Shown: piece by piece, positions 24,436 through 46,969 of the stretch
How the letters are laid out: each line of letters starts with the position of its first letter
Numbering within the stretch: the stretch's first letter is position 1
From: Anadara kagoshimensis
Taxonomy: Eukaryota > Mollusca > Bivalvia > Arcoida > Arcidae
Direction: 5' to 3'
NCBI GenBank assembly: GCA_021292105.1
Contig: CM037863.1
Location: 4,847,260 to 4,911,259 of the forward strand
Length of the DNA: 64,000 nt
Made by a program: the position numbers and the translations under genes
The notes under the pieces: model-generated
The model's database searches: none
What the model was told of the DNA's origin: nothing
What the model saw: the letters and a program-made list of their open reading frames with translations, nothing else

Positions 24436-24554
24436 AGTCTATTATTTACTACACCATTTAAGAAAGGGACACACGCCAACACTATACCATCCGTAATAAA
24501 TAATTACAACAAAAACAAAAATATATATATGCATGTAGACTATGGTATTGGATA
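24436..24554 (-). repeat. Split direct repeat B1 of E3
   Basis: Partner of B2, immediately downstream (minus strand) of the recombinase stop region at 24586. Confidence 0.75.
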
Positions 24555-24585
24555 GAATAAAAGAACGGGAAATGAAGCGAAACAA

Positions 24586-25640
24586 TTACAAATATAATTC
24601 TTTAGTAACTTCTAATCGTTTTTTGATACTATCATCTACGTTATCATCTTTACTTATATCACTTCGCCACCTTCCATGTCGTTTCCAACAACTCTCATTA
24701 ACCTGTGACCTAGCAACTATAGATAAACCGCTTGCAATCATAGAATAAAACCCTATATTTACATTGCCACAAACCTCTTTCAATCTACGGTTTCCCTGAC
24801 CCTAGTATAACTAAGTGGTTTATTGTAATATATAAGAGAACAAATTTGATTTGATCTAAATATAGGTTTGAACAAAAAATGATGAGAATCTAAAGAAACG
24901 TTATTGTGCATGCAAAATATATTTTCGTAGCATTTTAACTGGACATGCAACAGTTACTTCCTCACTAATTAAAATCTCATTTCCCTGCCTATACTGGTCT
25001 GCTTTACAAAGACAAATATGTATCATAAAAACAAATGTCCCTACTTAACAAAGAACTTACTTCCTGATATCGCAAAAAACCAGCAAAACAAAGCAATATC
25101 ATACACAGATCACGTGATACCAAAATGGCTGTAGTGTCTTTATACTTATTACACAGTTCTCTGATTTTTTGCAGATGAAATTACACATTTTTTAGTCTTA
25201 GCAGATTCAACTAAATTATGCACATAATGATTGTCTGTTTAATCTGAAACACCACACAATTTGTGTGCCTACTTAATGCCATATACTTTATGTTGAATAA
25301 CATTAAATGATTTACCTTTGTCCATCAAGTCTGTCAAATACAAAACAATGTAAATCGGTTCTGCTGGTATTACTTTCAAATTTTCAGAACTAGCAAAAGT
25401 CTTCTATTTGTTAAATGCACTAAAATAGTTCTTATTAGTATAGTCACTTTTTGAGCCAACTAAATGATTAACCATGCTATGAGCCAAATCATATAATCTA
25501 TCTGAAACTGTTCCATTACAACTGGCCACTGATACATCCTCTAAGATGGAATTGGTAAGACCTAAACCTAAGAACATAAATAAATCAATAATAAATAAAC
25601 ATACAAAATGTGATATGTAATGCAACTAAACTGAATTTAC
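24586..25640 (-). pseudogene. Tyrosine recombinase, both halves present but inactivated (E3)
   Basis: The N-domain (25150-25640) is followed in another frame by TTAILVSRDLCMILLCF and FAGFLRYQEVSSLLSRDI, which holds the first catalytic Arg. KADQYRQGNEILIS comes next (the conserved beta-strand Lys/SKTDQ region). The C-terminal frame 24586-24783 ends KRHGRWRSDISKDDNVDDS. Against the usual DIRS-family pattern (HSxR, later His, KDGY nucleophile), HSxR is YSMI here and the nucleophile Tyr is Asn. In-frame stops lie between 24790 and 24900. Catalytically dead, but it proves the family. Confidence 0.82.
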
Positions 25641-25649
25641 TTTTTCTGT

Positions 25650-27330
25650 CACCATATATACCATTGTTACGTCTACCCTTGTGTACTCTTTTACATGACA
25701 ATATTATGATTTCTTTAATAAATGACATAAATACACTGCCATCATGAATTTTAGGCCAATATCGAGCAGATCTCCAAAATGGTATAACTCAAGTATCTAT
25801 AGATTTTCTGCAACTAACGTATCAACAACCCTGCTTATAAGCCTTGGAGGTAGAACCAACCAATTTATTTCATTGGCCTAAGAATGCATGAAAGCATCAA
25901 CACCACTTGTTCCTGGGCACTTATTTTAAATTAAATTTAATACAATTAGTATTATAATCACTAGCAAATCTATCAAAAGTATGAGGAACCCAGGCTATAA
26001 TAAGCATGTTAAATGTGTCATTATTAACACACCAGTCTTCACTATCTGTGAACTAAGCATATCAGCTTTCTTATTGCTTGACCTAAAACCCCACACTGGG
26101 TTAATACTGACCATTTTTAGCTTCACACACATTGTAAATATCTTTTGCTTTTTCTTGAAGCTGAGGCTTCATGCTACCCTTCTCTATAATACTAACTACA
26201 CTCTTATTATCAGTATACCACTGAATATACTGTCCTTCCAGACAGTTCTCACATGAAAACAAAATTCTCCTAACCGTCTCAAATTCTCTCCAAGTAGAAC
26301 TTTCACTCATTTCTAAGTGTGACCAACTACCAAAAATCTCATATTTCTCATTCTCTACAATAAAAACCACCATAACCTGTACTTGATACATCAGAATAAA
26401 CTCTGTAATCAAATTCTGTAAAACAATCATTATACTGACCATTTCATGTTGTGTTATTTTTCAACCAACCCCTCAGCTCTAATTGGGCTTCTTGGCTAAC
26501 CATAATAGGTGCATTCCAACTTGCTCTATTAATAATACATTTAAAAAGCTCTCTGCTTTTCAATAACACTAACTAGCCAACAGCTGTATGCATAGAAATA
26601 ATCTGACCAGTCACACAAGCTACATCTCTTACAGGAATGCAAGGATTTTCAGCAATTCTTTCTAACAACAAGGAAATACTACTCAAAAGCTTATTAACTC
26701 TTTGTAGAGTAATACACTTTACCTTCTATGAAATTCCAACATAAACCTACCCAAACTATGGCATTACTTGGTGTCCAGCAACATTTTTGATCTGCTGATA
26801 GAAAACAACTTTTTCGTCAATCTGAATGAATTTTTAAACTGAATTTTAGGGCTTCATTGTAATTTGAATCTCCTCCAATTCCATCGTCTAAAAACATGAC
26901 TATTTTGTGTCGTAATGACCTCCAGTAAGTTATCAAACTTCTGGTAACTTTTGTGAAAAAATAACCTGCCACAGAAAAACCAAAAGTCAAGACATTGAAA
27001 ACAAAATACCTATATCCAGTCTGATAATGCCATGCAAAACCCAAATAAGTTCTTTGTTTTTCAAAAATTTCTATATAGTGATCAGCTGATTTTTAATCAA
27101 ATACAAAAACAAAAATACCTGCACAAAATATATCCTGTGCTACCTTTGCATCTTTATATTTAAACACATCCCTTTTTCAACAAATTTTGGATTTTATCTT
27201 CAGCAAATTCAATGTGATTTAAAGCAGATCTTGTATCCGGCATAACACATGAGACAGCGAAAAATGGAACGGAATCCAAGACTACAATATTTGCTCCCAT
27301 ATCAATTCAATAATAAATGTGCTTTCGTAA
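25650..27330 (-). pseudogene. Reverse transcriptase-RNase H polyprotein remnant (E3)
   Basis: RNase H is the best conserved part (26101-26442). It has MVVFIVENEKYEIFGSW, SSTWREFETVRRIL and the catalytic Asp in WYTDNKSVVSIIEKGS, and ends at a stop after KNGQY that every copy shares. The reverse-transcriptase palm 26817-27044 has VMFLDDGIGGDSNYNE. The fingers segment between TTTAAAC and ACATCC at ~27165 is deleted as in E1. At 27060-27110 the FDLKSAD motif A is broken by base changes. Confidence 0.8.
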
Positions 27331-29633
27331 CCTACCTGCAGGGGATATTGTTGTTTCTTTGAAAGTTGTCTCATCCTTCAAACGAACTCTTGACCCCATT
27401 AATTAAATCAAAATTAGAAATACCTATCTTATCACTGCCCTTAATCTTTCCCTAAATTTCTTTACAGTCCATGTCCCAATGGCCAGGCTTGCCACATGCA
27501 AAACACAGTCCAGGCCGTCTGAAACTGCCCTTGTTGGAGTGATTTGTAGACATCGTGCTGCTGCTAGTCCTCGTCGTGGAACTTCCGCCGTCTAAACTGT
27601 AAGGTTGCGTTCGATTCCCTCGCCAGGTGAGCTTCCGGGTCTTTGTCTTGAATTTTCTCATTCTCTTTCCTGTGAATCTTCTAATCATCTGAATCATCAG
27701 CTAGAGCATTTAGTGAATATTCCTCTGCTGTTAACCACCCTAATTGCAAATTACATATTACACCAGTTTTAATTTCACAGCACTAGACGGACGTTTCGGA
27801 CTAACTGCTAATTAATAAGTTTCTGACGTTGCTGTAACAAATTAATACCTTCTGATATCTTCTCCTGGACTTCAGTAGTTGCATCACGTAAATTAGGGTC
27901 TTCCTTTAACAAAGCGTCCGCCTTTATTATTTTCTTTTTTATTTTAGAATAAGATCTGAACTGCTTTTTGTTCCCTTTCTTATTAAACTTATATTTATCA
28001 CCAGTAATTTGCTCTATTTTGGCAACCTGAGGGTCACTAAGTAAACGATTAATGTCATTTATATGTTGCTGGATAAAACTAGTATTAGACATTTCCCACT
28101 TTGATATACTGCAAGCTCTGACTGTATACGATATACTGTTGAGGGGTCGTTTCAAAATTTTCAATGTCATCAGATGTATATATTCACGCCTTCTCACGCC
28201 TTTTCCCATCCATCCTAATATAAAGCCGACTAGAAATTTATTGGAATCCCTTCTCAGAACAGTTTATGCAGCGAAACAATTAATCAATTTTGCAGTAGTA
28301 TAATATCTATTTTACATCGAATCCCACAAACTGACTGCTTCGTGTGAATGTGTAACGTGTAAGGAGTCGTACCCAGGTTATTTCCTAGGATTCGATAAGG
28401 GAATACAATAAAGGGTTTCTTTAGAAATGAAATTAACCACAAGCTATAATAATTGTTAACCAAACTACTGTTTGCGAATAGCTCACGAGTTATTTAAGCT
28501 TGAATTTAAAATAAGGCGCACGAGCAAATATATACAGATAAATATGCGAATTAACAGAGAAAACATTAAATGGACAGAATGAATTTATAGAAATTATAGT
28601 ATAACGAATGTTTATTTAAAAATATGATTATCTATGATTTAAGGGTAGAAAACTTGCTCTTCCTAAGCTTAATTACAAGAGTGAAATCAGCTTTCTGGGC
28701 CAGCCGCGCACTAGCTGCCACAATAAATGAACAGTTTTCACTCCTTTATATACCCAGCCACTGTTGCATCTCGGGTAATAATCAGTGACGTCATCAACTT
28801 GATCATTGAAATGATTGACAGCTATTAAGAATCAATAACACAATTAAAACATTTAAATTCATTTATTACAAATGTATATCTTTGATCGGTGTAAACGATG
28901 GCGTGTTTGATGATATGGGCACAAACTAAACATTGATACATGAAGTATACAGTCGTTTGTTTTATGGTAAGATAAATATAAGTCAATAATATTACGATTT
29001 TTATCATTGTCTGACTTATGTTAGCAAAGCTAATAAATTGACTAATTAAATATTGTTTTATCTTCTTGACGTAAATTGCTTTCACTTGTATCGAGACATT
29101 ACCGGCAATAAATGGAAAGGCAGATTTAAATTTTTGTAGCGTTCTTAGTGTATTGTAAAACAAACGTTATTTTTGCCTACCGTACAACTGGACATTTTAA
29201 TATTAATGTTGTGCCGGGTCTACGTATTCAGTATCTTGAGGACGCTATTTATTTCATTTTCAAAAACTACTTGGCAAAACAACAATTTTTTATTTGATAT
29301 GGCTGGTCGGGACAAACCAGAGCTCAAACACCCAGCGTTCGCCATGCACTGCTTGACATTGGACTTGGGTATTTATACGAGATTAAAGTGTACAGAATAT
29401 TGAACGCTATCTGACGTAACCCGCGTTAAAAGCGTGATGAAATATACCTCTGGTTTAATTTGTAGAAGAACAATAAGTAATAATGAAGCCGTACACCATT
29501 TTCGTATTTAACTTATATGTGTCAACTAAATAACTTATATCTTTGGAAATGACCCCCACTCAACTGTATACCGTATACAGTCAGCGTTAGCAGTGTATTG
29601 AAGTCGGAAATGTCTAATAGCCGCCTCGTCCAT
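27331..29633 (-). pseudogene. Gag-like protein interrupted by a 1.5-kb element (E3)
   Basis: The start ATG (29633-29631) and a few codons are separated from the rest (27331-28082) by the insert 28083-29619. About 100 bp of the coiled-coil region is also missing, because GTTGCTGGA joins directly to TAAAACTAGT. The knuckle near 27460-27500 is intact (CFACGKPGHWDMDC), preceded by RGNRTQPYSLDGGSSTTRT. ITGDKYKFNKKGNKKQFRSY marks the basic middle region. Confidence 0.75.
28083..29619. mobile_element. 1.5-kb DNA element with ~70-bp terminal inverted repeats
   Basis: Left tip TATTAGACATTTCCCACTTT and right tip (complement) TATTAGACATTTCCGACTTC. Similarity runs ~70 bp inward through CTGACTGTATACG and TTGAGGGG-type motifs on both sides. 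It sits in the gag sequence AAACTAGTAATAGC. Because target and tip are both TA-rich, the duplication could be TA or up to 5 bp. Short open frames inside (28825-29163 minus, 29173-29403 plus) are unrecognised, so it appears non-autonomous. A CRE-like GTGACGTCATC occurs at ~28783-28793. Confidence 0.75.
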
Positions 29634-29690
29634 ACTGAAAAATGGTCTGACCAGTATGAAGAACAAGGCTAGAATGACACGTAATTTAAC

Positions 29691-31162
29691 TTTTATTTTT
29701 TACTTTCACACCTGGAACATTTTTAATATGTAAATGTTTTATATTGGAACAATAATTTCAAAGTGGGTTTAAACAGGTGTATTACTAACGCAAGCTTTTT
29801 TGGAAAACTAATACTTGTTCATTCTAGCCTATTTAAAGCGGAAGTTTGTCCATTGTACTCGAGCTGATAAATCAAGTTCGACATGCATGATAGGGTGTGT
29901 TTTTTGCATTTGCACAGACCTTAAGTGCGCAGTTAAGACAGGACGTTTACAATTCAAGAGGCAGAAGTTATTTTGGGAGAACTTTAATTAAGTTAACGGC
30001 AGTAATAGCTACAATCCATGACAATATTTCGTGGTAAGCTGTTTAATTCGATTATATCGAAGTGTTATAAAAGTTAAATATTTATTTACAGAGGCATTCT
30101 GTTCTGAGATATTTTTGTTACTTGGACTTTGTACTTTCGGTTTCATTTGAAATGTGACAAAGATTATTTTTAATCTCTTCTGCAGTATTGGTGTCTGGGG
30201 TAATACAGAATATGGTTAAATCAATTGACCCATTTTGTTGAGTAGAATAAAAACGGTATAATCTGACTTTGAGTATTATCGTAGAAACTGGATTTTGGAA
30301 ATCACCTTGGCTATTTATAAACGAATACGTCACTGGGTGTGTGTAGTGCGCAAGCTCACACACAATCTACAATAGCGAACACCGTAAATGCTGATTCATA
30401 CAAAGATCTTGAACCCAATATGGCACCAACACAAGTAATAGCTTTCCAAAAAGTTTGCCTGACTTAACATTTCCTAATATGAGGCCTTGGTTGCTGAGGG
30501 GCCTAATGCGGATCACAGGCTTTTCACTGCAGAATGGTCCTATATATCTGTAATGTATTAGTTATCATACATATTGTGTTAAAGTCGTACCAGTTGTTCC
30601 CCTTTAACTGTACTTTTGCGAGTTGTTCCTCATTAACTCTACTCTTGTTTAAAAACCATTTGATGATCATGAGCAGTATTAAATATTTCATGTTTTCATG
30701 TCGGACGTTCAGTTGTATGACATGGTTAATCGCTCTAGGTCCGATATATCTTTTTAGATCACCTGAGCCATCGGCTCAGATAAAGTATTTCTATCTATCT
30801 TCGGCCGTCGTCTGTCGTGTGTAAACTTTTCACATTTTAATCAAATCCTCCAAAACTGTAAAGCCAAATTTGATGATATTTGCCAGTAATGATGTCTAGG
30901 TAAGGGGCTTTCAGATTTGCACAAACAAAAAGATTATCTTCCTTTGGGGCCCCATGAAGGGGAAAATTGTTGAAATCATCAAAATCATCTCCTCTAAACT
31001 TACAAGAGATATAACTTAGATTTTTCATGTAAAACATACTGAGGGCACCTAGTTTCATATTTGCACAAATCGAATCTGTAGGGGCCGAAATGATGAAATG
31101 GCAAGGTACTTGAGGTGGAAATTGCCAAAATTAATGTATTTTTTCAATATATCTTGAACACT
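29691..31162 (+). repeat. Composite repeat block S6
   Basis: S copy between E3 and E4. Its inner inverted-repeat block (29787-30463) is ~130 bp shorter than in S7, owing to a deletion between two TCATA motifs (GATTCATA joined to CAAAGATC at ~30400). The M head starts near 30755 with CTGAGCCATCGGCTCAG. Confidence 0.78.
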
Positions 31163-31800
31163 CCTATACTGGTCTGTTTTACAAAGACAAATATGTGTCA
31201 TGAAAACAAATGTCCCTACTTAACAAAGAACTTACTTCCTGATATCGGAAAAAACAGCAAACAAAGCAATATCATACACAGATCACGTAATACCAAAATG
31301 TCTGTAGTGTCTTTATACTTATTACGCAGTCCTCTGATATTTTTTTCAGATCAAATTACTCATTTTTTAGTCTTTTGAACGGAATTGTGTCTCTTAGCAG
31401 ATTCAACTATGCACATAATGATTGTCTGTTGGATCTGAAACACTACACAATTTGTGTGCCCACCTAATACCATGTTGAATAACATTAATAGATTTCCTTT
31501 GTTCATCAAGTCTGTCAAAAACAAAGCCATGTGAATCGGTTCTGCTGGTATTACTCTCAAATTTTCAGAACTAACAAAAGTCTTCTATTTGTTAAATGCA
31601 CTAAAATAGTTCTTAATAGTATTGTCACTTTTTGAGCCAACTAAATGATTAACCATGCTCTGAGCCAAATCATGTAATCTATCTGAAACTGTTCCATTAC
31701 AACTGGCCACTGATACATCCTCTAAGATGGAATTGGTAAGACCTAAACCTAAGAACATAAATAAATCAATAAATAAACATACAAAATGTTATATGTAATG
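31163..31800 (-). pseudogene. Tyrosine recombinase N-terminal part (E4)
   Basis: Fragments include LTNSILEDVSVASCN, MVNHLVGSKSDNTIKNYF, and MRVIPAEPIHMALFLTDLMN leading to HIIES- or ESAKRHNSVQKTKK-type residues. Private deletions remove part of the linker between the two helical pairs (around 31405-31500). It is cut at KTDQYR. Confidence 0.76.
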
Positions 31801-31829
31801 CAACTAAACTGAATTTACTTTTTCTGTCA

Positions 31830-33600
31830 CCATATATACCATTGTTACGTCTACCCTTGTGTACTCTTTTACATGACAATATTATGATTTCTTTAATAAA
31901 TGACATAAATACACTGCCATCATGAATTTTAGGCCAATATAGAGCAGATCTCCAAAATGGTATAACTCAAGTATCTATAGATTTTCTGCAACTAACGTAT
32001 CAACAACCCTGCTTATAAGCCTTGGAGGTAGAACCAACCAATTTATTTCATTGGCCTAAGAATGCATGAAAGCATCAACACCACTTGTTCCTGGGCACCA
32101 CCATTTTGAATTAAATTTAATGCAATTAGTATTATAATCACTAGCAAATCTATCAAAAGTATGAGGAACCCAGGCTATAATAAGCATGTTAAATGTGTCA
32201 TTATTAACACACCAGTCTTCACTATCTGTGAACTAAGCATATCAGCTTTCTTATTGCTTGACCTAAAACCCCACACTGGGTTAATACTGACCATTTTTAG
32301 CTTCACACACATTGTGAATATCTTTTGCTTTTTCTTGAAGCTGAGGCTTCATGCTACCCTTCTCTATAATACTAACTACACTCTTATTATCAGTATACCA
32401 CTGAATATACTGTCCTTCCAGACAGTTCTCACATGAAAACAAAATTCTCCTAACCGTCTCAAATTCTCTCCAAGTAGAACTTTCACTCATTTCTAAGTGT
32501 GATCAACTACCAAAAATCTCATATTTCTCATTCTCTACAATAAAAACCACCATAACCTGTACTTGATACATCAGAATATACTCTGTAATCAAATTCTGTA
32601 AAACAATGAATATACTGACCATTTCATGTTGTGTTATTTTTCAACCAAACCCTCAGCTCTAATTGGGCTTCTTGGCTAACCATAATAGGTGCATTCCAAC
32701 TTGCTCTATTAATAATACATTTAAAAAGCTCTCTGCTTTTCAATAACACTAACTTGCCAACAGCTGTGTATGCATAGAAATAATCTGACCAGTCACACAA
32801 GCTACATCTCTTACAGGAATGCAAGGATTTTTAGCAATTCTTTCTTACAACAAGGAAATACTACTCATAAGCTTATTTACTCTTTGTACAGAAATACACT
32901 TTACCTTCTATGAAATTCCAACATAAACCTACCCAAACTATGGCATTACTTGGTGTCCAGCAACATTTTTGATCTGCTGATAGAAGACAACTTTTTCTTC
33001 AATCTGAATGAATCTTTAAACTGAATTTTAGGTCTTCATTGTAATTTGAATCTCCTCCAATTCCATCGTCTAAAAACATGACTATTTTGTGTCGTAATGA
33101 CCTCCAGTAAGTTATCAAACTTCTGGTATCTTTTGTGAAAATATAACCTGCCACAGAAAAACCAAAATGCAAGACATTGAAAACAAAATACCTATATCCA
33201 GTCTGATAATGCCATGCAAAACCCAAATAAGTTCTGTGTTCTTCAAAAATTTCTATATAGTGATCAGCTGATTTTAAATCAAAACCAAAAACAGAAATAC
33301 CTGCACAAAATATATCCTGTGCTACCTTTGCATCTTTATATTTAAACTTATACTTATATAGTAATGGGTTAATATGCCTACAATCCAAAACCAACCTGCA
33401 CTTAGATTTGTCAACAGACACAGTAAGGGGATTTATAGCCTTTGGTGGCTGATAAAATTCTGAAAAACATCCCTTTTTCAACAAATTTTGGATTTCATCT
33501 TCAGCAAATTCAATATGATTTAAAGCAGATCTATTATTCGGCATAAAACATGTGGATGGAATCCAAGACTACAATATTTGTCCCATATCAATCCAATTAT
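31830..33600 (-). pseudogene. Reverse transcriptase-RNase H remnant, longest frame (E4)
   Basis: The frame 32999-33544 reads through the reverse-transcriptase fingers and palm: ALNHIEFAEDEIQNLLKKG, PLTVSVDKSKCRLVLDCRHI, FGFDLKSADHYIEIFEEH (motif A Asp), then FGFSVAGYIFTK and VMFLDDGIGG (motif C Asp pair). RNase H 32281-32490 keeps WYTDNKSVVSIIEKGS. The connecting region around 32624-32824 (CVTGQIISM..AVGKLVLLKS) shows the thumb/connection expected between them. A stop at 32999 and the KNGQY stop at 32281 break the chain. Confidence 0.85.
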
Positions 33601-34414
33601 AAATGTGCTTTCGTAACCTACCTGCAGGGGATATTGTTGTATCTTTGAAATTTGTCTCATCAGAGTCAAACGAACTCTTGACCCTATTAATTAAATTAAA
33701 ATTAGAAATACTTATCTTATCACTGCCCTCAATCTTTCCCTAAATTTCTTTACAGTCCATGTCCCAATGGTCAGGCTTGCCACATGCAAAACACAGTCCA
33801 GGCCGTCTGAAACTGCCCCTGTTGGAGCAATTTGTAGACATCGTGCTGCTGCTAGTCCTCGTCGTGGAACTTCCGCCGTCTAAACTGTAATGTTGCGTTC
33901 GATTCCCTCGCCAGGTGAACTTCCGGGTCTTTGCCTTGAATTTTCTCTTTCCTGTGAATCTTTTTCTAATCATCTGAATCATCAGCTAGAGCATTTAGTG
34001 AATATTCCTCTGCTGTTCACCACCCTAATTGCGAACTATCTGCTAATTAATAAGTTCCTGACGTTGCTGTAACAAATTAATACCTTCTGATATCTTCTCC
34101 TAGACTTCAGTAGTTGCATCACGTAAATTAGAGTCTTCCTTTTACAAAGCGTCCGCCTTTATTATTTTCTTTTTTATTTTAGAATAAGATCTGAACTGCT
34201 CTTTGTTCCCTTTCTTATTAAACTTATATTTATCACCAGTAATTTGCTCTATTTTGGCAACCTGAGCGTCACTAAGTAAACGATTAATGTCATTTATATG
34301 TTGCTGGAAAGAACTCAACTTATTAGACATTAAACTGTCCAGCTTCTTCAACAAACTCGACTGAGAGGTTTCGATACGTTTATCGATAAAACTATTAATA
34401 GCAGCCTCGTACAT
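33601..34414 (-). pseudogene. Gag-like protein (E4)
   Basis: The ATG at 34414-34412 (MYEAAINSFIDKRIETS) is preferred over the upstream TTG of the longer open frame. The coiled coil SSLLKKLDSLMSNKLSSFQQ is followed by a Lys-rich region, ITGDKYKFNKKGNKEQFRSY. A frameshift near 34140 leads to the knuckle frame 33740-33982: CFACGKPDHWDMDC, CX2CX4HX4C intact. A stop follows KEI, where other copies read on. Confidence 0.78.
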
Positions 34415-34470
34415 ACTGAAAAATGGTCTGACCAGTATAAAGAACAAGGCTAGAATGACACGTAATTTAA

Positions 34471-36087
34471 CTTGTAGTTTTTACATTTACACCAAGAATA
34501 TTTTTGTAGTATTTAATGTGTAAATGTTTTATATTGGAACAATAATTTCAAAGTGGGTTTAAACAGGTGTATTACTAACGCAAGCTTTTTGGAAAGCTAA
34601 TACTTGTTTATTTTAACCTATTTAAAGCGGAAGTTTGTCCATTGTACTCGAGCTGTTAAATCATTTTCGACATGCATGATAGGGTGTGTTTTTTGCATTT
34701 GAACAGACCTTAAGTGCGCAGTTGAGACAGGACGTTTACAATTCAAGAGACAGAAGTTATTTTGGAGAACTTTAATTAAGTTAACGGCAGTAATAGCCTA
34801 CAATCCATGACAATATTTTGTGGTAAGCTGTTTAATTTGATTATATCGAAGTGTTATAAAAGTTAAATATTTATTTACAGAGGTATTTTGTTCTGAGATA
34901 TTTTTGTTACTTGGACTTTGTACTTTCGGTTTGATTTTAAATGTGACAAAGATTATATTTTAATCTCTTCTGCAGTAGGGGGTTATACAAAATATGGTTA
35001 AATCAATTGACCCATTTTGTTGGGTAGAATAAAAACGGTATAATCTGACTTTGAGTATTATCGTAGAACCTGGATTTTGGAAATCACCTTGGCTATTTAT
35101 GAACGAATACGTCACTGGGTGTGTGTAGTGCGCAAGCTTACACACGATCTACAATAGCGAACACCGGAAATTCTGATTCATAACAATCAATCTTACATCA
35201 TTGCAAACATTCAAAACATTAATTTATTGCCTATTAAATTGATGCTAATACATAAACCCCATACAGTATTCCCATATATATATGTTATGTAACACATACT
35301 ACACAATGCAAGGTGTGTATGACATCATACAAAGATCTTGAACCACATATGGCACCAACACAAGTACTAGCTTTCCAAAAAGTTTGCCTGACTTAACATT
35401 TCCTAATATGAGGCCTTGGTTGCTGAGGGTTTAATGCGGATCATAGGCTTTTCACTGCAAATGGTCCTATATATCTGTAATGTATTAGTTATAATACATA
35501 TTGTGTTAAAGTCGTACCAGTTGTTCCCCTTTAACTGTACTTTTGCGAGTTGTCCTCATTAACTCTACTCTTGTAAAAACCCTTTGATGATCATGAGCAG
35601 TATCAAATATTTTATGTTTTCATGTCGGACGTTCAGTTGTATGCCATGGTTAATCGCTCTAGGTCCGATATATCTTTTTAGATCACCTGAGCCATCGGCT
35701 CAGATGAAGTATTTCTATCTATCTTCGTCCGTCGTCTGTCATGTGTAAACTTTTCACATTTTAATCAAATCCTCCAAAACTATAAAGCCAAATTGGATGA
35801 TATTTGCCAAAAATGATGTCTAGGTAAGGGGCTTTCAGATTTGCACAAACAAAAAGATAATCTCCCTTTGGGGCTACATGAAGGGGAAAATTGTTAAAAC
35901 CTTCAAAAATCATCTCCTCTGAACTTACAAGAGATATAACTTAGATTTTTCATGTAAAACATAATGAGAGCACGTAGTTTCATATTTGCACAAATCGAAT
36001 CTGTAGGGGCCGAAATGATGAAATGGCAAGGTACTTGAGGTGGAAATTGCCAAAATTAATGTATTTTTTTAATATATCTTGAACACT
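34471..36087 (+). repeat. Composite repeat block S7 (reference copy)
   Basis: Clean S copy between E4 and E5. Leader 34471-34576. Inner block 34577-35393 with inverted ends GCAAGCTTTTTGGAAAGCTA and TAGCTTTCCAAAAAGTTTGC. Middle 35394-35670 includes GATGATCATGAGCAG. The M head from ~35680 has the hairpin CTGAGCCATCGGCTCAG. A conserved segment ATACGTCACTGGGTGTGTG lies near 35107-35125. A splice-like pair (TGTGGTAAGCTG at ~34819, TTTATTTACAG at ~34870-34880) is 58 bp apart. No protein is recognised. Confidence 0.82.
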
Positions 36088-36735
36088 CCTATACTGGTCT
36101 GTTTTACAAAGACAAATATGTATCATGAAAACAAATGTCCCTACTTAACAAAGAACTTACTTCCTGATATCGCAAAAACCAGCAAAACAAAGCAATATCA
36201 TACACAGATCACGTAATACCAAAATGTCTGTAGTGTCTTTATACTTATTACACAGTTATCTGATTTCTTTTCAGATGAAATTACACATTTTTAGTTTTTT
36301 GAACGGAATTGTGTCTCTTAGCAGATTCAACTAAATTATGCACATAATGATTGTGTGTTGAATCGGAAACACTACCCAATTTGTGTGCCCACTTAATACC
36401 ATATACTACATGTTGAATAACATTAATAAATTTATTTTTGTTCATCAAGTCTGTCAAAAACAAAGCCATGTGAATCGGTTCTGCTGGTATTACTCTCAAA
36501 TTTTCATAACTAACAAAAGTCTTCTATTTGTTAAATGCACTAAAATAGTTCTTAATAGTATTGTCACTTTTTGAGCCAACTAAATGATTAACCATGCTAT
36601 GAGCCAAATCATGTAATCTATCTGAACCTGTTCCATTACAACTGGCCACTGATACATCCTCTAAGATGGAATTGGTAAGACCTAAACCTAAGAACATAAA
36701 TAAAACAATAATAAATAAACATACAAAATGTTATA
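36088..36735 (-). pseudogene. Tyrosine recombinase N-terminal part (E5)
   Basis: The frame 36281-36499 joins MRVIPAEPIHMALFLTDLMN to INVIQHVVYGIKWAHKLGSV and HYVHNLVESAKRHNSVQKT, the longest single-frame stretch of the N-domain's second half in this window. The Arg-box segment is frameshifted, as in E1. Confidence 0.78.
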
Positions 36736-36759
36736 TGTAATGCAACTAAACTGAATTTA

Positions 36760-38540
36760 CTTTTTCTGTCACCATATATACCATTGGTACGTCTACCCTT
36801 GTGTACTCTTTTACATGACAATATTATGATTTCTTTAATAAATGACATAAATACACTGCCATCATGAATTTTAGGCCAATATCGAGCAGATCTCCAAAAT
36901 GGTATAACTCAAGTATCTATAGATTTTCTGCAACTAACGTATCAACAACCCTGCTTATAAGCCTTGGAGGTAGAACCAACCAATTTATTTCATTGGCCTA
37001 AGAATGCATGAAAGCATCAACACCACTTGTTCCTGGGCACCACCATTTTGAATTAAATTTAATACAATTAGTATTATAAGCACTAGCAAATCTATCAAAA
37101 GCATGAGGAACCCAGGCTATAATAAGCATGTTAAATGTGTCATTATTAACACACCAGTCTTCACTATCTGTGAACTAAGCATATCAGCTTTCTTATTGCT
37201 TGACCTAAAACCCCACACTGGGTTAATACTGACCATTTTTAGCTTCACACACATTGTGAATATCTTTTGCTTTTTCTTGAAGCTGAGGCTTCATGCTACC
37301 CTTCTCTATAATACTAACTACACTCTTATTATCAGTATACCACTGAATATACTGTCCTTCCAGACAGTTCTCACATGAAAACAAAATTCTCCTAACCGTC
37401 TCAAATTCTCTCCAAGTAGAACTTTCACTCATTTCTAAGTGTGACCAACTACCAAAAATCTCATATTTCTCATTCTCTACAAAAAAACCATCATAACCTG
37501 TACTTGATACATCAGAATAAACTCTGTAATCAAATTCTGTAAAACAATCATTATACTGACCATTTCATGTTGTGTTATTTTTCAACCAAACCCTCAGCTC
37601 TAATTGGGCTTCTTGGCTAACCATAATAGGTGCATTCCAACTTGCTCTATTAATAATACATTTAAAAAGCTCTCTGCTTTTCAATAACACTAACTTGCCA
37701 ACAGCTGTATGCATAGAAATAATCTGACCAGTCACACAAGCTACATCTCTTACAGGAATGCAAGGATTTTTAGCAATTCTTTCTTACAACAAGGAAATAC
37801 TACTCAAAAGCTTATTACTCTTTGTTCTGTAATATACACTTTACCTTCTATGAAATTCCAAAATAAACCTAGCCAAACTATGACATTACTTGGTGTCCAG
37901 CAACATTTTTCATCTGCTGAGAAAACCACTTTTTCTTAAATCTGAATGACTTTTTAAACAGAATTTTAGGGCTTCATTATAATTTGAATCTCCTCCAATT
38001 CCATCGTCTAAAAACATGACTATTTTGTGTCGTAATGACCTCCAGTAAGTTATCAAACTTCTGATATCTTTTGTGAAAATATAACCTGCCACTGAAATAC
38101 CAAAAGGCAAGACATTGAAAACAAAATACCTATATCCAGTCTGATAATGCCATGCAAAACACAAATAAGTTCTGTGTTCTTCAAAAATTTATATATGGTG
38201 ATAAGCTGATTTTAAATCAAAACCAAAAACAAAATTACCTGCACAAAATATATCCTTTGCTACCTTTGCATCTTTATATTTAAACTTATACTTATATAGT
38301 AATGGGTTAATATGCCTACAATCCAAAACCAACCTGCACTTCGATTTGTCAACAGACACAGTAAGGGGATTTATAGGTTTTGGGGGCTGATTTAAAAAAT
38401 TTCTGAAATACATCCCTTTTTCAACAAATTTTGGATTCATCTGCAACAAATTCAATGCGATTTAACAGCAGATGTATTATGCGGCATAAAATCATAGCCG
38501 CAAAAAGTGGAATAGAATCCAAGACTACAATATTTTGCTC
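36760..38540 (-). pseudogene. Reverse transcriptase-RNase H remnant (E5)
   Basis: Two adjoining frames cover the reverse transcriptase. 38189-38455 has NPLTVSVDKSKCRLVLDCRH and GFDLKSAYHHI (motif A; neighbouring Asp-to-Tyr change after SA). 37910-38164 has VMFLDDGIGGDSNYNE. RNase H 37223-37432 keeps the WYTDNKSVVS motif and the shared KNGQY stop. Confidence 0.82.
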
Positions 38541-39345
38541 CCATTTTCAATGCAATAATAAATGTGCTTTCGTAACCTACCTACAGGGGATATGGTTGTA
38601 TCTTTGAAATTTGTCATCAGAGTCAAACAAACTCTTGACCCCATTAATTAAATCCAAATTACAAATACTTTTCTTATCACTGCCCTCAATGGCAAGGCTT
38701 GCACAAGCAAAACACGGTCCTGCAGAGTCTGAAACTGTACTTGTTGGAGTAATTTGTAGACATCGTGCTGCTGGTGGTCCTCGTCGTGGAACTTCTACCG
38801 TCTAAACTTTAAGGTTGCGTTCGATTCCCTCGCCAGGTGAACTTCCGGGTCTTTCTTGAATTTTCTCATAGCTGCATTCTCTTTCCTGTGAATCTTCTTC
38901 TCATCGTCTGAATCATCAGCTAGAGCATTAATGAATATTCCTCTGCTGTTAACCACCCTAATTGCGAACTATCTACTAATTAATAAGTTCTGACGTTGCT
39001 GTAACAAATTAATACCTTCTGATATCTTATCCTATACTTCAGTAGTTGCATCACGTAAATTAGGGTCTTCCTTTAACAAAGCGTTCATCTCCATTATTTC
39101 TTTTGTATTTTAGAATTAGCTCTGAACTGCACTTCGTTCCCTTTCTTATTAAAATTATATTTATCACTAGTAATTTACTCTCTTTTGGAAACCTGAGCGT
39201 CACTAAGTAAACGAATAATGTCATTTATATGTTGCTGGAAAGAACTCTACTTATTAGACATTAAACTGCCCAGCTTCTTCAACAATCTCGACTGAGAGGT
39301 TTCAATACGTTTATCAATGAAACTAGTCATAGCCGCCTCGTCGAT
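38541..39345 (-). pseudogene. Gag-like protein, start codon and knuckle lost (E5)
   Basis: The initiator region reads TATCGA instead of TATGGA on the minus strand (39340-39345), destroying the ATG used in E1-E4. The knuckle region near 38690-38730 has lost ~25 bp, and with it the HWDMDC half. Coiled-coil and basic segments remain recognisable at DNA level. Confidence 0.7.
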
Positions 39346-39401
39346 ACTAAAATAATAGTCTGACCAGGGTGAAGATCAAGGCGAGAATGACACGTAAGTT
39401 A

Positions 39402-40815
39402 ACTTGTATTTTCTACATTCACTCTAGGAATATTTTTGCAGTATTTATTGTGTAAATGTTCTATATTGGAACAATAATTTCCAAGTGGGTTTAAACAGGT
39501 GTATTACTAAAGCAAGTTTTTTTGGAAAGCTAATACTTGTTCATTTTAACCTATTTAAAGCGGAATTTGTCCGTTGTATTCGAGCTGTTAAATCAAATTC
39601 GACACGCATGATAGGTGTGTTTTTTGCATTTGCACAGACCTTAAAGGCGCAGTTGAAATAGGACGTTTACAATTCAAGAGGCAGAAGTGATTTCGGAAAA
39701 CTTTAATTAATTTAACGGCAGTAAAAGCCTACAATCCATGACAGTAGTCTCTGGTAAGCTGTTTAATTTGTTTATATCGAAGTGTTAAAAAAGTGAAATA
39801 TTTATTTACAGATGTATTTTGTTCTGAGATAGTTTTGTAACATGGACTTTGTACTTTCGGTTTCTTTTTAAATGTGACAAAGATTATTTTTAAATTCTTC
39901 TGTAGTAGGGGTGTCTGGGGTAATACAGAATATGGTTAAAACAATTGACCCATTTTGTTGGGTAGAATAAAAACGGTATTATCTGATTTTGAGTATTATC
40001 GTAGAAACTAGATTTTGGAAATAACCTTGGCTATTTATAAACGAATACGTCACTGCCACTGGATGTGTGTAGTGCGCAAGCTTACACACAATCTACAATA
40101 GCGGACACCGGAAATGCTGATTCATAACAATCTTACATCACTGCAAATATTTAAAACATTAATTTATTGCCTATTAAATTTATGCTAACTAATACATAAA
40201 CCCCATACAGTATTCCCATATATATTTGTTATCTGACACATACTACACAATGCAAGGTGTGTATGACATACAAAGATCAACCAAGTTTAGCACCAACACA
40301 AGTACTAGCTTTCCAAAAAGCTTGCCTGAGTAATCATTTTCTAATATGAGGCCTTGGTGGCTGAGGGGCTTAAAGCGGATCACAGGCTTTTCACTGCTTA
40401 ATGGTCCAATATATCTGTAATGTATTAGTTATTATATATATTGTGTTAAAGTTATGCGAGTTGTTCCCCTTTAACAGTTTAATTGTACTTTTGTAAAATA
40501 CGGGTTCCCCATTAACTGTACTCTTGTATAAAAACACTTTTATGATCATGAACAGTGTGTTCATGTCTTACATTCAGTTGTTTATCTGAACCTGTATGCC
40601 AGGGTTAATCGCTCTAGGCCCGATATATCTTTTTAGATCTCTTTTAAAAATCATCTCCTCTGTACTTACAAGAGATATAACTAGATATACTGACAGGGCA
40701 CCTAGTTTCATATTGCACAAATCGTATCTGTAGGGGCCAAAATATGGAAATGGCAAGGTACTTGATGGGGAATTTAATTGCCAAAATTAATGTATTTTTC
40801 AATATATCATGAACA
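39402..40815 (+). repeat. Composite repeat block S8
   Basis: S copy with the inner inverted-repeat block at ~39508-40331. It has lost most of the M head: ATCTTTTTAGATCT joins directly to TTTAAAAATCATCTCC at ~40640, so the hairpin is gone. A small duplication gives CACTGCCACTGGATGTG near 40050-40070. Confidence 0.72.
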
Positions 40816-41270
40816 CTATAATTTTTTGGTATAGGCATGTATATTAGAATATTGTAGGCATTTCCACAACAATCATTTTGATATATGAACGAGGGTCATA
40901 TGTTTAAAGGTCAAGGTCATAGTTGCGATCTAATACTGAAATTGTTCATTATCTCAAAAAACTATAAACATTTTTGTATAGGCATGTATATTAGAATAGT
41001 GTAGGCATTTGTACAATGATCATTTTGATTTATAGAAAAAGGTTATGGGTTCAAAGGTCCAGGTCACATATGCAAAATAATACCGAAATGGTTAATTATC
41101 TTGAAAACTATTAACTTTTTGTATAGGCATGTATATTAGAATGTTGTAGGTATTGATACAACAGTTATTATGATGTAAAGAAAAAAGTCATTGGTATTTA
41201 TGTTTTCTTTAATTTTATCAGCTAGCCATTAGTTATCAGGTGCGCGTATTAGGCCCATGGGCCTCTTGTT
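40816..41270 (+). repeat. M core with complete right end
   Basis: Three monomers (TATAGGCATGTATATTAGAA at ~40831, 40977 and 41122) followed by the tail CAGCTAGCCATTAGTTATCA, GGTGCGCG and the perfect palindrome AGGCCCATGGGCCT, then CTTGT. The same tail ends the copy at 56539-56845. The tail CAGGTGA(G) is complementary to TCACCTGA of the head, giving subterminal inverted repeats. Confidence 0.75.
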
Positions 41271-42148
41271 TTATATTTTTATATTTATTTTTGAAAAAAT
41301 CAACAAATAAGAATTACAATTGGATTTTTGGTGACCATGTGGTGCAGTAGTTAGCATTTCTGTTCACCACCAACCTAGTGCATAACCACATGTTTACGTG
41401 AGAAGGACACCTGGTTGGATTCACCCTAATCTCCAATTTTCAAAGAAACTCTAAAATCCTGATCAATAAATAGATAGATTGTAAGTGGAAGTTTGTCAAA
41501 TGATGCTAAATTTTATTCAGGTTTTAGTAATTCCTTGGTCAGGATTATGAAATGTTGATCATTTATTATATTTTAATAGGTTTTTCACATGTTTTGATTG
41601 ACAAGACTCAACAGATTTCTGCAAACAAGAATGACATATTTTTTGGGCAGTGTAATGATTTGCTTCTTTGATTATCCCCCACCCTCAGGGGTGAGGGAAT
41701 AAAGTAATACCGCTGTGCGTGTGTGTGTGTGTGTGTGATTGTTCATGAATAATATGGTTTCCATGCATTTGAAAGAAAACAGTATATGGCTGTATACCCA
41801 ATATTTTAGTATATTATCAAGGTTTTAATTATGATGCAATATAGAGACATGCCTGATGCAGTACCTCTGCAGGTGTATTATGAACAGAATTTGTTAGGTA
41901 ATCACGACTGTCCTATCAATTTTGAAGCCCATAATGAAATAATTATGTTTTTGTACATATCAAGATGCTGCTATTTTAAGCGAAACACGAGAGGGGAGAG
42001 AGATTGTTGTTGTAATGTTGTTTAACCTCACATCAAAATTAACAAATTTATAAATGTCTAACGATTACATGTAATCTAAGAACAAGTTTGTGTATGCATG
42101 AGATGTGCAACTTTTGTTGTGTGTTTTGTTCTAGTTCATCTTTAATGT
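41271..42148. other. Gene-free stretch with a SINE-like fragment and (GT)n
   Basis: AT-rich. Besides the tRNA-like fragment at 41330-41430 and a GT run at ~41717-41738, nothing is recognised. The 64-codon open frame at 41831 has no family resemblance. Confidence 0.5.
41330..41430 (+). mobile_element. tRNA-derived SINE-like fragment
   Basis: Exact box A, TGGTGCAGTAG (41340-41350), within TGGTGCAGTAGTTAGCATTT, a common SINE/tRNA start. A weak box B, GGTTGGATTCA, lies at 41413-41423. The two are ~73 bp apart, longer than in an intact tRNA. Confidence 0.5.
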
Positions 42149-42492
42149 TTAGAGACAGTCATTTTCATAAATAACTTTTATACTTTTGAAATTGTTGAAG
42201 CCCAATATTGATATTTTATTTTAAAAACAAAAAGCACATAAAAAAATATTTTTAGCTTTATTTTTACTTTTTCCGTCATTCTCCTACATAGAGAAAATTT
42301 TACATTTTTACTAAAAATTGGCTGTAATATTTTCCCTTGGTGACCCCATATGTATATACTGTAAATCAAGAAATTAATGCGAGCAAGAAATTAATGCGAA
42401 AAATGCGAGACCCGTTTCATCGCATTAATTTGTTGTCGCATTAATTTTCCGATTTCCAAAAGTTCAATGTAAAATTATTTCACAAGAAGAAA

Positions 42493-42675
42493 AGTCACCT
42501 TTAAGGATCCTTAAAGCCCCCTTAAAGACTCATTAAATGGGGCTTTAAGGATCTTTAAGGGGTCTTTAAGGACCTTAAATGTGTCTTTAAGGTCTCTTTA
42601 AGGACATCCTTAAAGATCCTTAATGGAACTGAAATTTTAAGGATCTTTAAGGCGGCTTTAAGGATCTTTAAGGAT
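42493..42675. repeat. Subterminal array of copy B (equivalent to right array of A)
   Basis: CTTTAAGGATCCTTAAAGCC and related motifs, the complement of 19283-19465 with few changes. Confidence 0.75.
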
Positions 42676-42995
42676 TCGTTTAATAAACACAGAAAACAAA
42701 TTTCTTTACATTTTTTTAAATTTTAAATTTATATAAATATGATGTTAAATATAATTATTTAACTTATTATACTCTTACACTGTTTTTATTTTATTTTATT
42801 GTTTTAGTTAAACAAAATTTATTTTATTTTTTTATATTTTTATTTATTTATAAAATTTGTAAAAAAAAAATTTTTTATTTAATCATTTTTCTTTATCAAT
42901 TTATACTAATTTTGGTTGTTTTGCAAGTAGTCCTGAAATCACAAATAAAGAAGAACACGTTATTTAACATTATTTATTACAAATACTTATCTAAT

Positions 42996-43090
42996 TTCGC
43001 TAGCGGCGGGACTTGAACTCACTACCCTTAGTTCCCCAGATTACATCCTTTCCTGACTCTACATCCTTATCCATTAGGCCACGGAAGACA
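42996..43090 (-). pseudogene. tRNA-Arg-like sequence in copy B
   Basis: Minus-strand box A TGGCCTAATGG (43072-43082) and box B AGTTCAAGTCC (43010-43020). Nearly identical to 18871-18961, so both derive from the same element ancestor. Confidence 0.55.
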
Positions 43091-43763
43091 TGCATATACA
43101 TTGTATATTTTTAAACTATATCAGTACCCGGTAGCCTAAGGATCATGTGACTAGCTCTAAATCTTCCAGATTTAATAATAAAATATATAAATAAAATGTT
43201 TTACTCCATTTTAAAAATATTTTATTATTATTATTATCATTATTATTATAGTTTGCTCTTTCATTCTTGAGAGGAATAATTTTTAGGTTAATTTAACTGA
43301 CTTAAGATTTCTGATCAAAGGAAGACGGGCATATCAAATCTTTACCTGTAATACACTTATTTATCTGACTGGCAAACATCACTTTTATAAAGATCAATTA
43401 TCGATCAGATATCCATTCCTATTTGTATAATCTTAATCATACTACTGCTTTTTTATTAAAATATTTCAATAATTCTTGAAATTAAAACAATAATTTTAAG
43501 TAAATTTTATTTAAAATTGTCTTTTATAATTTAGTTACATTTTTGTTGTAATACCAATACTTATTTCCTTGTTTGATAAACAACTATAATATTGTACCAG
43601 CGACATTTAATAATCTATACAAAATGGAAGGACGAGTTTTAATGATAATTTGTTATAATCTTAATCTATCCTTCAAAATCTCGCATTTAACTTAAATGGC
43701 TGTTTTATGAGGGAAACAGTGAGAATGTTAAATAAAATAATTTCAGAAATTAATTCAATTCAC

Positions 43764-43815
<52 letters not shown>

Positions 43816-43929
43816 GGTGCACATGTTAAACATTATAATAATAGTACTCTTTACAAATTTAAACAGTAGAACTAGCGACATTTCCTACTGTTATAAATCT
43901 GGTAAAACTGTTTTAAAAAAATATTACCA

Positions 43930-44080
43930 TTGTCATACTCAAAAGCGGATCCAAGTGAATAGTCACTACCCTTTTTCAAGTTTTGGATCAGACCCGGCCA
44001 GAGACCAAACCCGCGACCTTCCACTTCTGGAGCGGACAGTCGACACTCTACCGAGCTGGCTGCTACCGAAGTGGAAGGTC
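43930..44080 (-). mobile_element. tRNA-derived SINE fragment inside copy B
   Basis: Complement reads AGCTCGGTAGAGTGTCGACT, then TCGCGGGTTTGGTCTCTGGC. Same fragment as 17866-18020 in copy A. A polymorphic GA tract follows at 43767-43810. Confidence 0.55.
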
Positions 44081-44454
44081 TCCTTCCTCCCCACTTTTTC
44101 CACACTTGTTTAAAATTATCTATATGACATCCATCTGAACATTCAAGTTAATTTTATTATATTAATTAAATTATTACATTATTACACTAAATAATCAGTA
44201 TAATGGTGCAACACACAAGAATCCTTTTTACCAGAAAATAGCACTTATCATTTTAGATTTGTTCCATAAAGCCAATAACGGACGGATAGAATAAAAAGTC
44301 AAATGAGATGGAATTTATAAAAACCAATTAAAAATTAAAAAAATGTACAAAAAACGTACAAAAATTGGGACTTTTATATGAAAATAGGACTTTGCGCTAT
44401 AAAAATATACAAAAAGATAATCTTATGTGCTAAAAATGTACCATTCTAATTAGC

Positions 44455-44472
44455 TCTCTCTCTCCCTCTCTC

Positions 44473-44508
<36 letters not shown>

Positions 44509-44633
44509 ATCCTCCCGACTATATTGTAAATAACGTTTTATGGCATTTCTACCAACCTACCATAGATCCAGGAGGGGGAATGAAATGTGTCCCCATATCA
44601 TAATAACTGTCGTCCACAGATCAATGGCTAATG

Positions 44634-44693
<60 letters not shown>

Positions 44694-44815
44694 CTCCCGA
44701 CTATATTGTAAATAACGTTTTATGGCATTTCTACCAACCTACCATAGATCCAGGAGGGGGAATGAAATGTGTCCCCATATCATAATAACTGTCGTCCACA
44801 GATCAATGGCTAATG

Positions 44816-44874
<59 letters not shown>

Positions 44875-45010
44875 TCTCTCTCTCATCCTCCCGACTATCA
44901 TTGTAAATAACGTTTTATGGCATTTCTACCAACCTACCATAGATCCAGGAGGGGGAATGAAATGTGTCCCCATATCATAATAACTGTCGTCCACAGATCA
45001 ATGGCTAATG

Positions 45011-45060
<50 letters not shown>
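44455..45060. repeat. Minisatellite: three ~185-bp units with CT tracts (copy B only)
   Basis: Three near-identical units start at 44509, 44691 and 44885. Each has ~127 bp of unique sequence (CCGACTATATTGTAAATAAC... CAATGGCTAATGTGTAC) followed by a 50-60-bp CT tract. Copy A has only a single GA tract at this point, so the unit arrived or expanded after A and B separated. Confidence 0.85.
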
Positions 45061-45062
<2 letters not shown>

Positions 45063-46356
45063 GCCCTGACCTTGGTCCCAATATTCATTTATGATTAATG
45101 GAATCACTCTTTATGGAATCTGTCCTTGAATAAGAATTATTTTTGAAGTACTGATAACAGCCCAGTTTAAAATTCATGCTTTCTGACAAGACAGAAGTGT
45201 CTTAATTAGTATTACTAATTAACGTCATTTACTAATACTAACTGGGTTCTTTCATGCCTAAGTGATCAGGTAAATAACATTATCACCTAAGACTGGTCAG
45301 CACTACCTGAATTCTTTCATACCTCAGCGAACTGGTACATTACAGAGGTATCATCCTCTGATTGCAATTACCTACCTGTACACGAATTAATTAATCAGTA
45401 CCACTAATTAACTGGTCCATCCACTGGTTGCTTGACAATTTGCGGTAAGCGAGAGGGAAAAAAGTCGGAAAGCAGGGGCAAATGTTGGGGTGCCCCCCTC
45501 CCCGCCCACCTACCTCCATCCCGCTGGATCTGACACTGCATGATTTACCATTTTTGAATTATTTTTAAACAGAACGAAAAAAGTACACGACACTGCAAAT
45601 CCAAATTCTCTCTCCTCTCTCTCTCTTTCTCTCCTAGATATGACAATATTCCAACGTCAGCTGCAGACTGCTAATATCTTTTTGTGTTTGAACAACACCA
45701 TTCGATTTATTTCTGGAGAAAACTTTTTTACTTTTTTCTCAACATAATCAGGATAACGGGATAGCAGAGTATAGAGTTCCATTCCTGTGTCAAGATTATT
45801 TCACTTATATCATTATTTGATTCAATGAATAAGAATTCTAGAATATCCAAGAATGTAAAACCTGAGCGAACTGACAAATTTTCTGAGATTATGGCCTGTC
45901 CCAGTTTAATATTTTGTCAGTTTGTAACAAAATTGTATAGTCTTGTGTAGAGACTTTAAGTTCAAGGATAGTGAAAGAAATCGAAGTGCATTGAGATTAG
46001 AACCAATATTCGACAAGCGAGTTTTCTCACACTAGATTTTCCCTAAAGATGTGAACCAAGACAGTGAGATCAAGATTTTGCTAGTTATATTGAGGCTATC
46101 AGTTCTAGGATTATTAATGAAACGGAAACACACAGAGAACCCCATTTTCGACAAGAAAACAAATTAAAACGATAATTAACTTAAAATAAATGCCGATGAT
46201 ATAAATGTTTTTTCTTTTAATTGTTTCATTATAAATCACAACTTTATTAGCCCGAAATTCGTTAACTTGGATTGCGGACCTATTCTATGATTAGAAAATC
46301 ATGCTTATAGTTTTCGCTTGTGGGAAAAAGTTCCGATAGACAACTCTCAGCTCCGA

Positions 46357-46405
<49 letters not shown>

Positions 46406-46508
46406 AACAACTTGATCAGAGAATACAAGTTATTTTACTGGATCGATCGAGAAATTATTACATGAAGAAGATAGTGCAAATGAATCTACCAGTTTTGTCT
46501 ATGAAATT

Positions 46509-46513
46509 GTGGT

Positions 46514-46584
<71 letters not shown>

Positions 46585-46710
46585 TATGAGTGTTTATTTA
46601 TTTATTTGATTATTTATTTATTATTTATATGATTATTTAAATATTTATTTGATTCTTTATTTATTAATTTATATGATAATTTATTTATTTATTTATTTGA
46701 TTATTTATTT

Positions 46711-46758
<48 letters not shown>

Positions 46759-46914
46759 TATGAATGCACATTTCAAGGTCATGAAATAAGAAATATCAAA
46801 TAATGGTAGTTTAAAAACTGATGATGTACAAGTCTTCGCTCTGCCCTCACTCTCTAACTCTCTCTCTCTCTCTCTCTCTCATATTTCATATACTATTAAA
46901 GTTTTTAAAAATAT

Positions 46915-46968: not shown

Positions 46969-46969
<1 letters not shown>

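Follow-up and report, generated by a model that had tools for sequence, protein, structure and literature searches.

Tandem repeats founded by retrotransposons have been described in maize, where CRM1TR and CRM4TR grew from a retrotransposon after illegitimate recombination had made a new junction; gene conversion is proposed for their growth, with unequal exchange and circles left possible (PMC3648361). Among tyrosine-recombinase retrotransposons, the presence of a methyltransferase separates PAT from Ngaro, in which it is absent (PMC4157794). A related arrangement is found in the bivalve Anadara kagoshimensis, in a window of 64,000 nucleotides (C7:4847260-4911259; C7 and similar names are contig numbers) of a genome of 1,115,223,567 bases in 36 contigs. 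There, a truncated retrotransposon body, E, is fused to a block S and to the head of a Helentron-like repeat, M, and the composite recurs head to tail. Most likely, the array is a dead retrotransposon fused to a mobile-element repeat and copied by ordinary local DNA recombination.

The block S has a length of ~1.2 kb and is directly followed by the M head, which represents the 5' ~400 bp of M; in several comparisons S and the M head were handled as a single ~1.6-kb block. M also comprises ~145-bp tandem repeats and a 3' tail, and two other blocks, H and sp390, lie upstream of S. The junction between M head and E was counted genome-wide and the counts are lower bounds; counts of a second junction, of the join between the A1 end of E and S (A1/S), and of the boundary between S and the B2 end of E (S/B2) cover the fetched DNA.

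BLAST comparison of the window with itself revealed the array order E3-S6-E4-S7-E5-S8, all in one orientation and with a step of 4925 bp, as between the E starts at 31163 and 36088, which bears out the alternation S6-E4-S7-E5-S8 and the distance between E ends proposed in the first-pass annotation. In the self-comparison, 30396-35684 and 35325-40639 were 91.4% identical over 5394 columns. The start of the array, previously placed at 29,691, is actually near 23.5 kb, and its first unit, E3 at 24988, which meets S6 by the usual E/S join, had been missed. The fusion ACACT/CCTATACTGG is located at the identical place in E1, E2, E4, E5 and E6 (1293, 14051, 31163, 36088 and 63402), and the opposite join, A1 end to S start, occurs before S2, S5, S6, S7 and S8 at one point within 1-2 bases. 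Identity amounts to 93.8-96.6% among E copies and 89.1-95.6% among S1-S9. Individual units carry private indels and inserts, and hence the array is neither a chance feature nor a simple assembly duplication. E4 and E5 are broken off within a recombinase-like gene and joined to the M head. Left of E3 there is no S-E fusion. The sequence continues past the fusion base, first with open pieces of the remainder of the recombinase-like gene, next with the split direct repeats, and finally with S, which is cut off at its base 107 and preceded by block H. The array and its borders are composed as follows (window positions).

23527 to 23981, plus strand: block H (23527-23875) and an S copy interrupted after ~107 bp by the B2 end (from alignments; S107/B2 boundary in 8/8 copies)
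23982 to 24103, minus strand: B2, outer split direct repeat of the retrotransposon (122 columns, 90.2% identity to B1)
24243 to 24435, minus strand: A2, consisting of a 53-bp piece equal to the right end of E (24243-24295) and an outer 140 bp (24296-24435)
24436 to 24555, minus strand: B1, inner split direct repeat (from its alignment to B2)
24556 to 24987, minus strand: C-terminal part of the recombinase-like gene, first unit only (open pieces 24589-24801 and 24904-25044; no Pfam match)
24988 to 29683, minus strand: E3, first unit, with complete left end and a 1.5-kb insert at about 28084-29614
29684 to 31162, plus strand: S6, including the M head (last ~400 bp)
31163 to 34464, minus strand: E4, truncated body with gag-like, reverse transcriptase (RT)-like, RNase H-like and N-terminal recombinase-like pieces, carrying stops and frame changes
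34465 to 36087, plus strand: S7 (M head at 35683-36087)
36088 to 39399, minus strand: E5, truncated body
39400 to 40817, plus strand: S8, M head partly deleted
40805 to 41195, plus strand: M tandem repeats of ~147 bp, present only behind the last unit (Tandem Repeats Finder, TRF)
41196 to 41275, plus strand: M 3' tail with the 14-bp palindrome AGGCCCATGGGCCT (more copies at C7:3769491, 3859214 and 4904031)

The genome-wide search for S-E junctions suggested in the first-pass annotation was performed with the pattern ATCTTRAACACTCCTATACTGGTCTG at no more than 3 mismatches and returned 15 forward, 0 reverse and 0 control matches in 1.115 Gb. All 15 M-head/E junctions are exact, on the plus strand and placed on C7 between 3776080 and 5019506; the junctions, their number and their place are direct observations. 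A 401-bp query recovered the identical 15 junctions among its 40 scored matches of 1914 candidates, and the other 25 scored matches, on C7 and other contigs, contained either E or M head but not both. Both parents are dispersed, while the fused unit is found in one cluster. The 15/15 exact junctions, in one orientation and on one chromosome segment, support the earlier view that one fused unit was amplified and argue against repeated insertion. Joining of E to S at many points, the outcome that had been set against this view, was not seen: two points are known, both in the C7 cluster, the second as counted in the fetched DNA.

A unit with complete left end is present on C7 at 3781433, 3837598, 4840159, 4870786 (the window copy), 4916046, 5024826, 5035795 and 5076204, and the S107/B2 boundary falls at the identical S base in 8/8 of these copies, in further agreement with a single amplified unit. 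The number of extra units behind the complete-left copy is 0 at 5024826-5035777, 2 in the window and at 4840159, and 3 at 3837598; the copy at 5076204 is followed by 3 units of a second type. This second type is defined by another junction, M head 367/E 921, and forms a ~4.0-kb unit (steps of 4001 and 3997 bp); the junction was observed directly at 5 places, 3798771, 4933400, 5082420, 5086421 and 5090418. The claim that the fusion points of the array recur in S1-E1, S4-E2 and S9-E6 holds in the window, but a second fusion point exists elsewhere on C7. The E/S join lies at one point within 1-2 bases in 27/27 ends compared, a set that leaves aside 4931805, 4937884 and the deletion-broken 3830909. 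Single fused units preceded by no complete-left unit are S4-E2-S5, S9-E6, 3774675 and 5017729, and the array at 3813388 also begins with a fused unit. The window contains the following units outside the array.

1 to 6067, plus strand: S1-E1-S2, the last units of another array, which starts left of the window at C7:4840159
7245 to 8842, plus strand: S3, S and M head without E (unfused state)
12452 to 23094, plus strand: S4-E2-S5, single fused unit with a 4.1-kb insert at 15357-19479
59909 to 61535, plus strand: S0, a divergent (~70%) S piece, then M head, then tandem repeats; the exact S/M-head boundary is not kept, as S is incomplete here
61980 to 64000, plus strand: S9-E6, start of a single fused unit ending in tandem repeats right of the window (C7:4909239-4916028)

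Arrays of the cluster are related in part unit by unit. The window array contains three E copies (E3-E4-E5) and the array at C7:3837598 four; E4 pairs with 3844340 (99.7-99.8%) and E5 with 3854155 (98.4-98.6%), for 3849231 the window offers no comparable partner, and E3 and 3839089 resemble each other no more than they resemble other copies. In the array left of the window, the neighbouring units 4843747 and E1 are 99.0-99.4% alike. The 4.1-kb insert occurs after E base 1290 in E2, 3815715, 3782855, 4917485 and 5026317, and its sharing by complete-left and truncated units is as expected if blocks were exchanged or duplicated. This insert (15357-19479) is DNA-transposon-like, with arrays of ATCCTTAAAG near both ends and an inverted copy at 42481-47899. 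The 1.5-kb insert of E3 (28084-29614) has terminal inverted repeats of ~75 bp (82%) and a 99.0% identical copy in E at C7:3822853-3824382. The same array types are present in C7:3.77-3.87 Mb and C7:4.84-4.94 Mb, blocks separated by about 1 Mb, and sp390-H at 3813388 is among the stretches 99.4-99.7% identical to the window. The motif TGCCTATAC at the break in the recombinase-like gene (24986-24994) is reverse-complementary to GTATAGGCA, which lies where the M tandem repeats start (about 23099-23107), and the first junction brings these two places together.

The best explanation of these data, with a probability of roughly 0.85, consists of one insertion, a microhomology deletion, at least two local tandem duplications and unequal exchange. 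A single retrotransposon would have inserted into S within a local array composed of S and Helentron-like repeats, and we infer that this happened once, at S base 107, because the same base is found in 8/8 copies. A deletion may then have joined the truncated A1 end to the start of the following S via shared TAAC; the A1/S join on C7 looks like a deletion product since copies on C11 and C14 keep the full A1 end. Tandem duplication of a segment reaching from a point within the recombinase-like gene as far as the M head end would have created the 4.9-kb unit, and an independent duplication with other ends the ~4.0-kb unit. Both duplications might have proceeded by end joining, with 0-1 shared base at the first junction and about 3-5 at the second (read by eye). 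Unequal homologous exchange between S and E copies probably changed the unit numbers and shuffled the copies, and larger duplications would have spread the cluster over about 1.3 Mb of one chromosome. Unequal crossing-over, one of the mechanisms considered previously, is consistent with crossovers detected in both E and S and with a unit number that varies between paralogous arrays. A recurrent break site at the start of the M tandem repeats, driving tandem duplication, is doubtful, though it would fit the right-hand ends of the two duplications, which fall within 38 bp at the M head end (405 for the 4.9-kb unit and 367 for the 4.0-kb unit), as against about 920 bp between their left-hand ends.

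Mosaic copies were observed directly. Among 64 two-state informative sites in E1-E5, 18 pair E1 with E2 and are all located in columns 189-1498, and 26 pair E2 with E5, all in columns 1789-3243; none of 100000 shuffles separated the two groups as cleanly, and the other 20 sites show other pairings. S2 differs from S7 by 2.7% up to column 1249 and by 10.5% thereafter (0/500 shuffles), S4 differs from S3 by 5.1% up to column 1286 and then by 14.7% (0/500), and the comparison of S4 with S1 is reversed, with 6.6% followed by 2.4% (3/500). These patterns fit an S block whose left part would belong with the preceding sequence and whose right part would belong with the following sequence. In two-block tests of seven S copies against S3 and S7, S4 was clean (0/2000). 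A half-grouping test with 15 of the roughly 30 E copies and fragments that the fetched DNA contains revealed that right halves of E group by the next element, tandem repeats or another E (6/6435 label sets; 1/6435 with E1 reclassed), and that left halves hardly group (575/6435; 370/6435 with E1 reclassed). The right half of the single-unit copy, which was likewise observed directly, is closest to those of terminal E2 (97.8%), 3776092, E6 and 5019493.

A number of observations weigh against this history. A right flank from before the deletion, in which A1 would be followed by S from base 108, was seen in no copy. Rearranged pieces, including the second junction, follow the complete-left copies 3781433 and 4916046, and the copy at 5035795 is internally deleted and extends past the limit of the fetched DNA. 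Change points scatter between columns 69 and 1614 across the nine S pairs tested, and the signal is weak in three of these pairs (12, 42 and 115 of 500 shuffles), which requires either more than a single exchange or rates that are uneven; two of the main change points are close to the M 5' end at column 1286. The two-block tests of S1, S2, S5, S6, S8 and S9 were not clean (192 to 1500 of 2000). E1 has an internal-type right half despite the tandem repeats after it, the copies in the half-grouping test are related by larger duplications and hence not independent, and terminal E5 and its partner 3854155 are among the copies least like the right half of the single-unit copy, the presumed precursor.

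Both kinds of parent element are thought to make circles, and extrachromosomal E-S circles, released by recombination between S copies and reintegrated by homology into other S copies, would predict the same mosaic S blocks: S4 is S3-like on its left and unit-like on its right, and S2 is the reverse. Circles would also account for single fused units in an H-S-M setting, such as S4-E2-S5 and C7:5017729. Unequal exchange, too, produces such mosaics, with no need for a circle, and all 15 junctions lie on one chromosome stretch in one orientation, though M heads, which provide homology, were matched on several other contigs. We therefore infer that exchange rather than circles changed the unit number, and regard circles as unlikely.

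Rolling-circle replication or capture by the Helentron-like M, the other mechanism offered in the first-pass annotation, might have made a concatemer in which tandem repeats and tail are kept only in the last copy, as is the case in the window array. The join expected from it, S to the M 5' end, is already present in the E-less S3, C7:3806119-3807751 and C7:3808923-3810509 and so need not arise by concatenation at the M 5' end; the order of S and then M head is also found in the ~70% identical S0. The joins specific to the array are M-head/E and E/S, and no fused unit was found off C7, with M heads present on several contigs. A rolling-circle origin, thus, is very improbable and was abandoned in favour of local duplication and exchange. 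Even less credit can be given to an assembly artefact: mis-assembly is common in long near-identical repeats and the assembly alone was examined, but the units differ by several percent and carry private indels and inserts, C7:3765001-3865000 is free of N, several arrays of differing unit number exist, and the N content of the window is a single run of 1000 N at 55539-56538, an assembly gap outside the array. The least credible alternative is that E inserted independently at a preferred target in S or M, for although E copies without S on C11 and C14, and left-truncated on C19, indicate that the family was mobile, the fused copies share two truncations (in the recombinase-like gene and in A1) absent from C11 and C14, and the junction is exact in 15/15 found.

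By its sequence, E appears to be a decayed retrotransposon with split direct repeats, PAT/Ngaro-like, with degraded pieces of gag, RT, RNase H and the N-terminal part of the recombinase, in this order, on the minus strand. The split direct repeats are present in the order A1-body-B1-A2-B2, with 90.6% identity over 53 bp between A2 and the E right end and a ~139-bp spacer between A2 and B2, and this anatomy provides a stronger identification than the domain matches. The copies on C11 (33433024-33437575) and C14 (19861812-19866310) show the same repeat order with A1 complete, no S occurs within the 10 kb fetched, C19 holds a left-truncated E copy without S, and the outer 140 bp of A2 (24296-24435) recurs at the A1 end of the C11, C14 and C19 copies. 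A zf-CCHC zinc knuckle was found in the gag of E1 (21.8 bits, above the Pfam cut-off of 20.8), and the E2 piece 20625-21083 gave no zinc knuckle match in Pfam. RVT_1 matches were weak (E=0.00018, 21.7 bits; E=0.0099, 16 bits; both below the cut-off of 29.6), with none in two other scanned pieces, and a Phage_integrase match is suggestive only (E=0.14, below cut-off, profile 16-53 of 172). Recombinase-like pieces joined with X had no Pfam match, and their PDB matches were two unrelated chance-level ones. The DDGIGG motif of the RT-like piece is one we take to be DIRS-like, and the names given to the recombinase, RNase H and DIRS-type RT motifs are likewise our assumption. Scans of pieces located between RNase H and recombinase gave no methyltransferase match; one motif may be methyltransferase-like. 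Relatives of one RT-like piece were sought by pattern, with 6 stretches in viral_contigs and 44 in genome_contigs, of which tblastn confirmed none. The window E copies, broken by stops and frame changes, show no sign of function.

Compared with E2, E4 and E5, the RT-like piece lacks ~115 bp in both E1 and E3 (3473-3484; 27162-27165); this gap has a 12-bp overlap at its ends in E1 and is also present in the unit C7:4843747. A spliced intron was rejected for E1, E3 and 4843747, as the segment is in open frame in E4. S as a long terminal repeat of E was as well rejected: at S3 and C7:3805770-3810509 there are S and M head but no E, and C11 and C14 have E without S.

The sequence of M, in turn, appears to resemble HINE, a non-autonomous Helentron of oyster. 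Four arrays of its tandem repeats were detected by TRF at 6065, 11317, 23089 and 40805 (periods 140-147 bp, 2.7-3.1 copies). The M head can form the hairpin CTGAGCC..GGCTCAG (z -3.14), the whole M tail folds no better than its shuffles (z -0.13), and the 7-bp motifs CACCTGA in the head and TCAGGTG in the tail were read by eye. Between the M head of S3 and the tandem repeats lies a 2.47-kb sequence (8843-11314), and a gap of similar size is found in the same place at C7:3810510-3812986. In the window, Rfam at gathering threshold and ARAGORN in its bacterial setting gave 0 matches each. About 0.9 kb of degenerate GAT-rich tandem repeats is located outside the array at 51460-52372.

In a limited literature check, none of the titles listed announced such a retrotransposon-Helentron composite. 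M shares with Cg_HINE of Crassostrea gigas the hairpin head, the short array of ~145-bp repeats and the tail with a short palindrome, and differs in that no microsatellite was noticed at the M head end and M itself is not the amplified unit (PMC7492417). E is similar to PAT/Ngaro in its split-direct-repeat order and the zinc knuckle in gag, and unlike elements of that type its copies are decayed (PMC4157794). With CRM1TR and CRM4TR, the C7 locus has in common a retrotransposon-founded tandem repeat with a shared new junction; the maize repeats derive from LTR retrotransposons alone, whereas a tyrosine-recombinase-type retrotransposon and a Helentron-like repeat are combined here, in a unit of 4-5 kb, in short arrays and with the single-unit state still present (PMC3648361). 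A shared new junction, a single locus, one orientation and evidence of exchange, as expected of a tandem repeat derived from a transposable element by local recombination, were all found on C7. The cluster offers an unusually complete record of the passage from transposon insertion to tandem repeat on one chromosome, including unfused repeats, the single-unit state, two duplication junctions and arrays of several lengths, and suggests that ordinary recombination is able to produce such composites even from two mobile-element parents. It is no new kind of system, being ordinary in kind and a good documented example: retrotransposon-founded tandem repeats are already known, and what is new here are the other parents and the preserved intermediate states.

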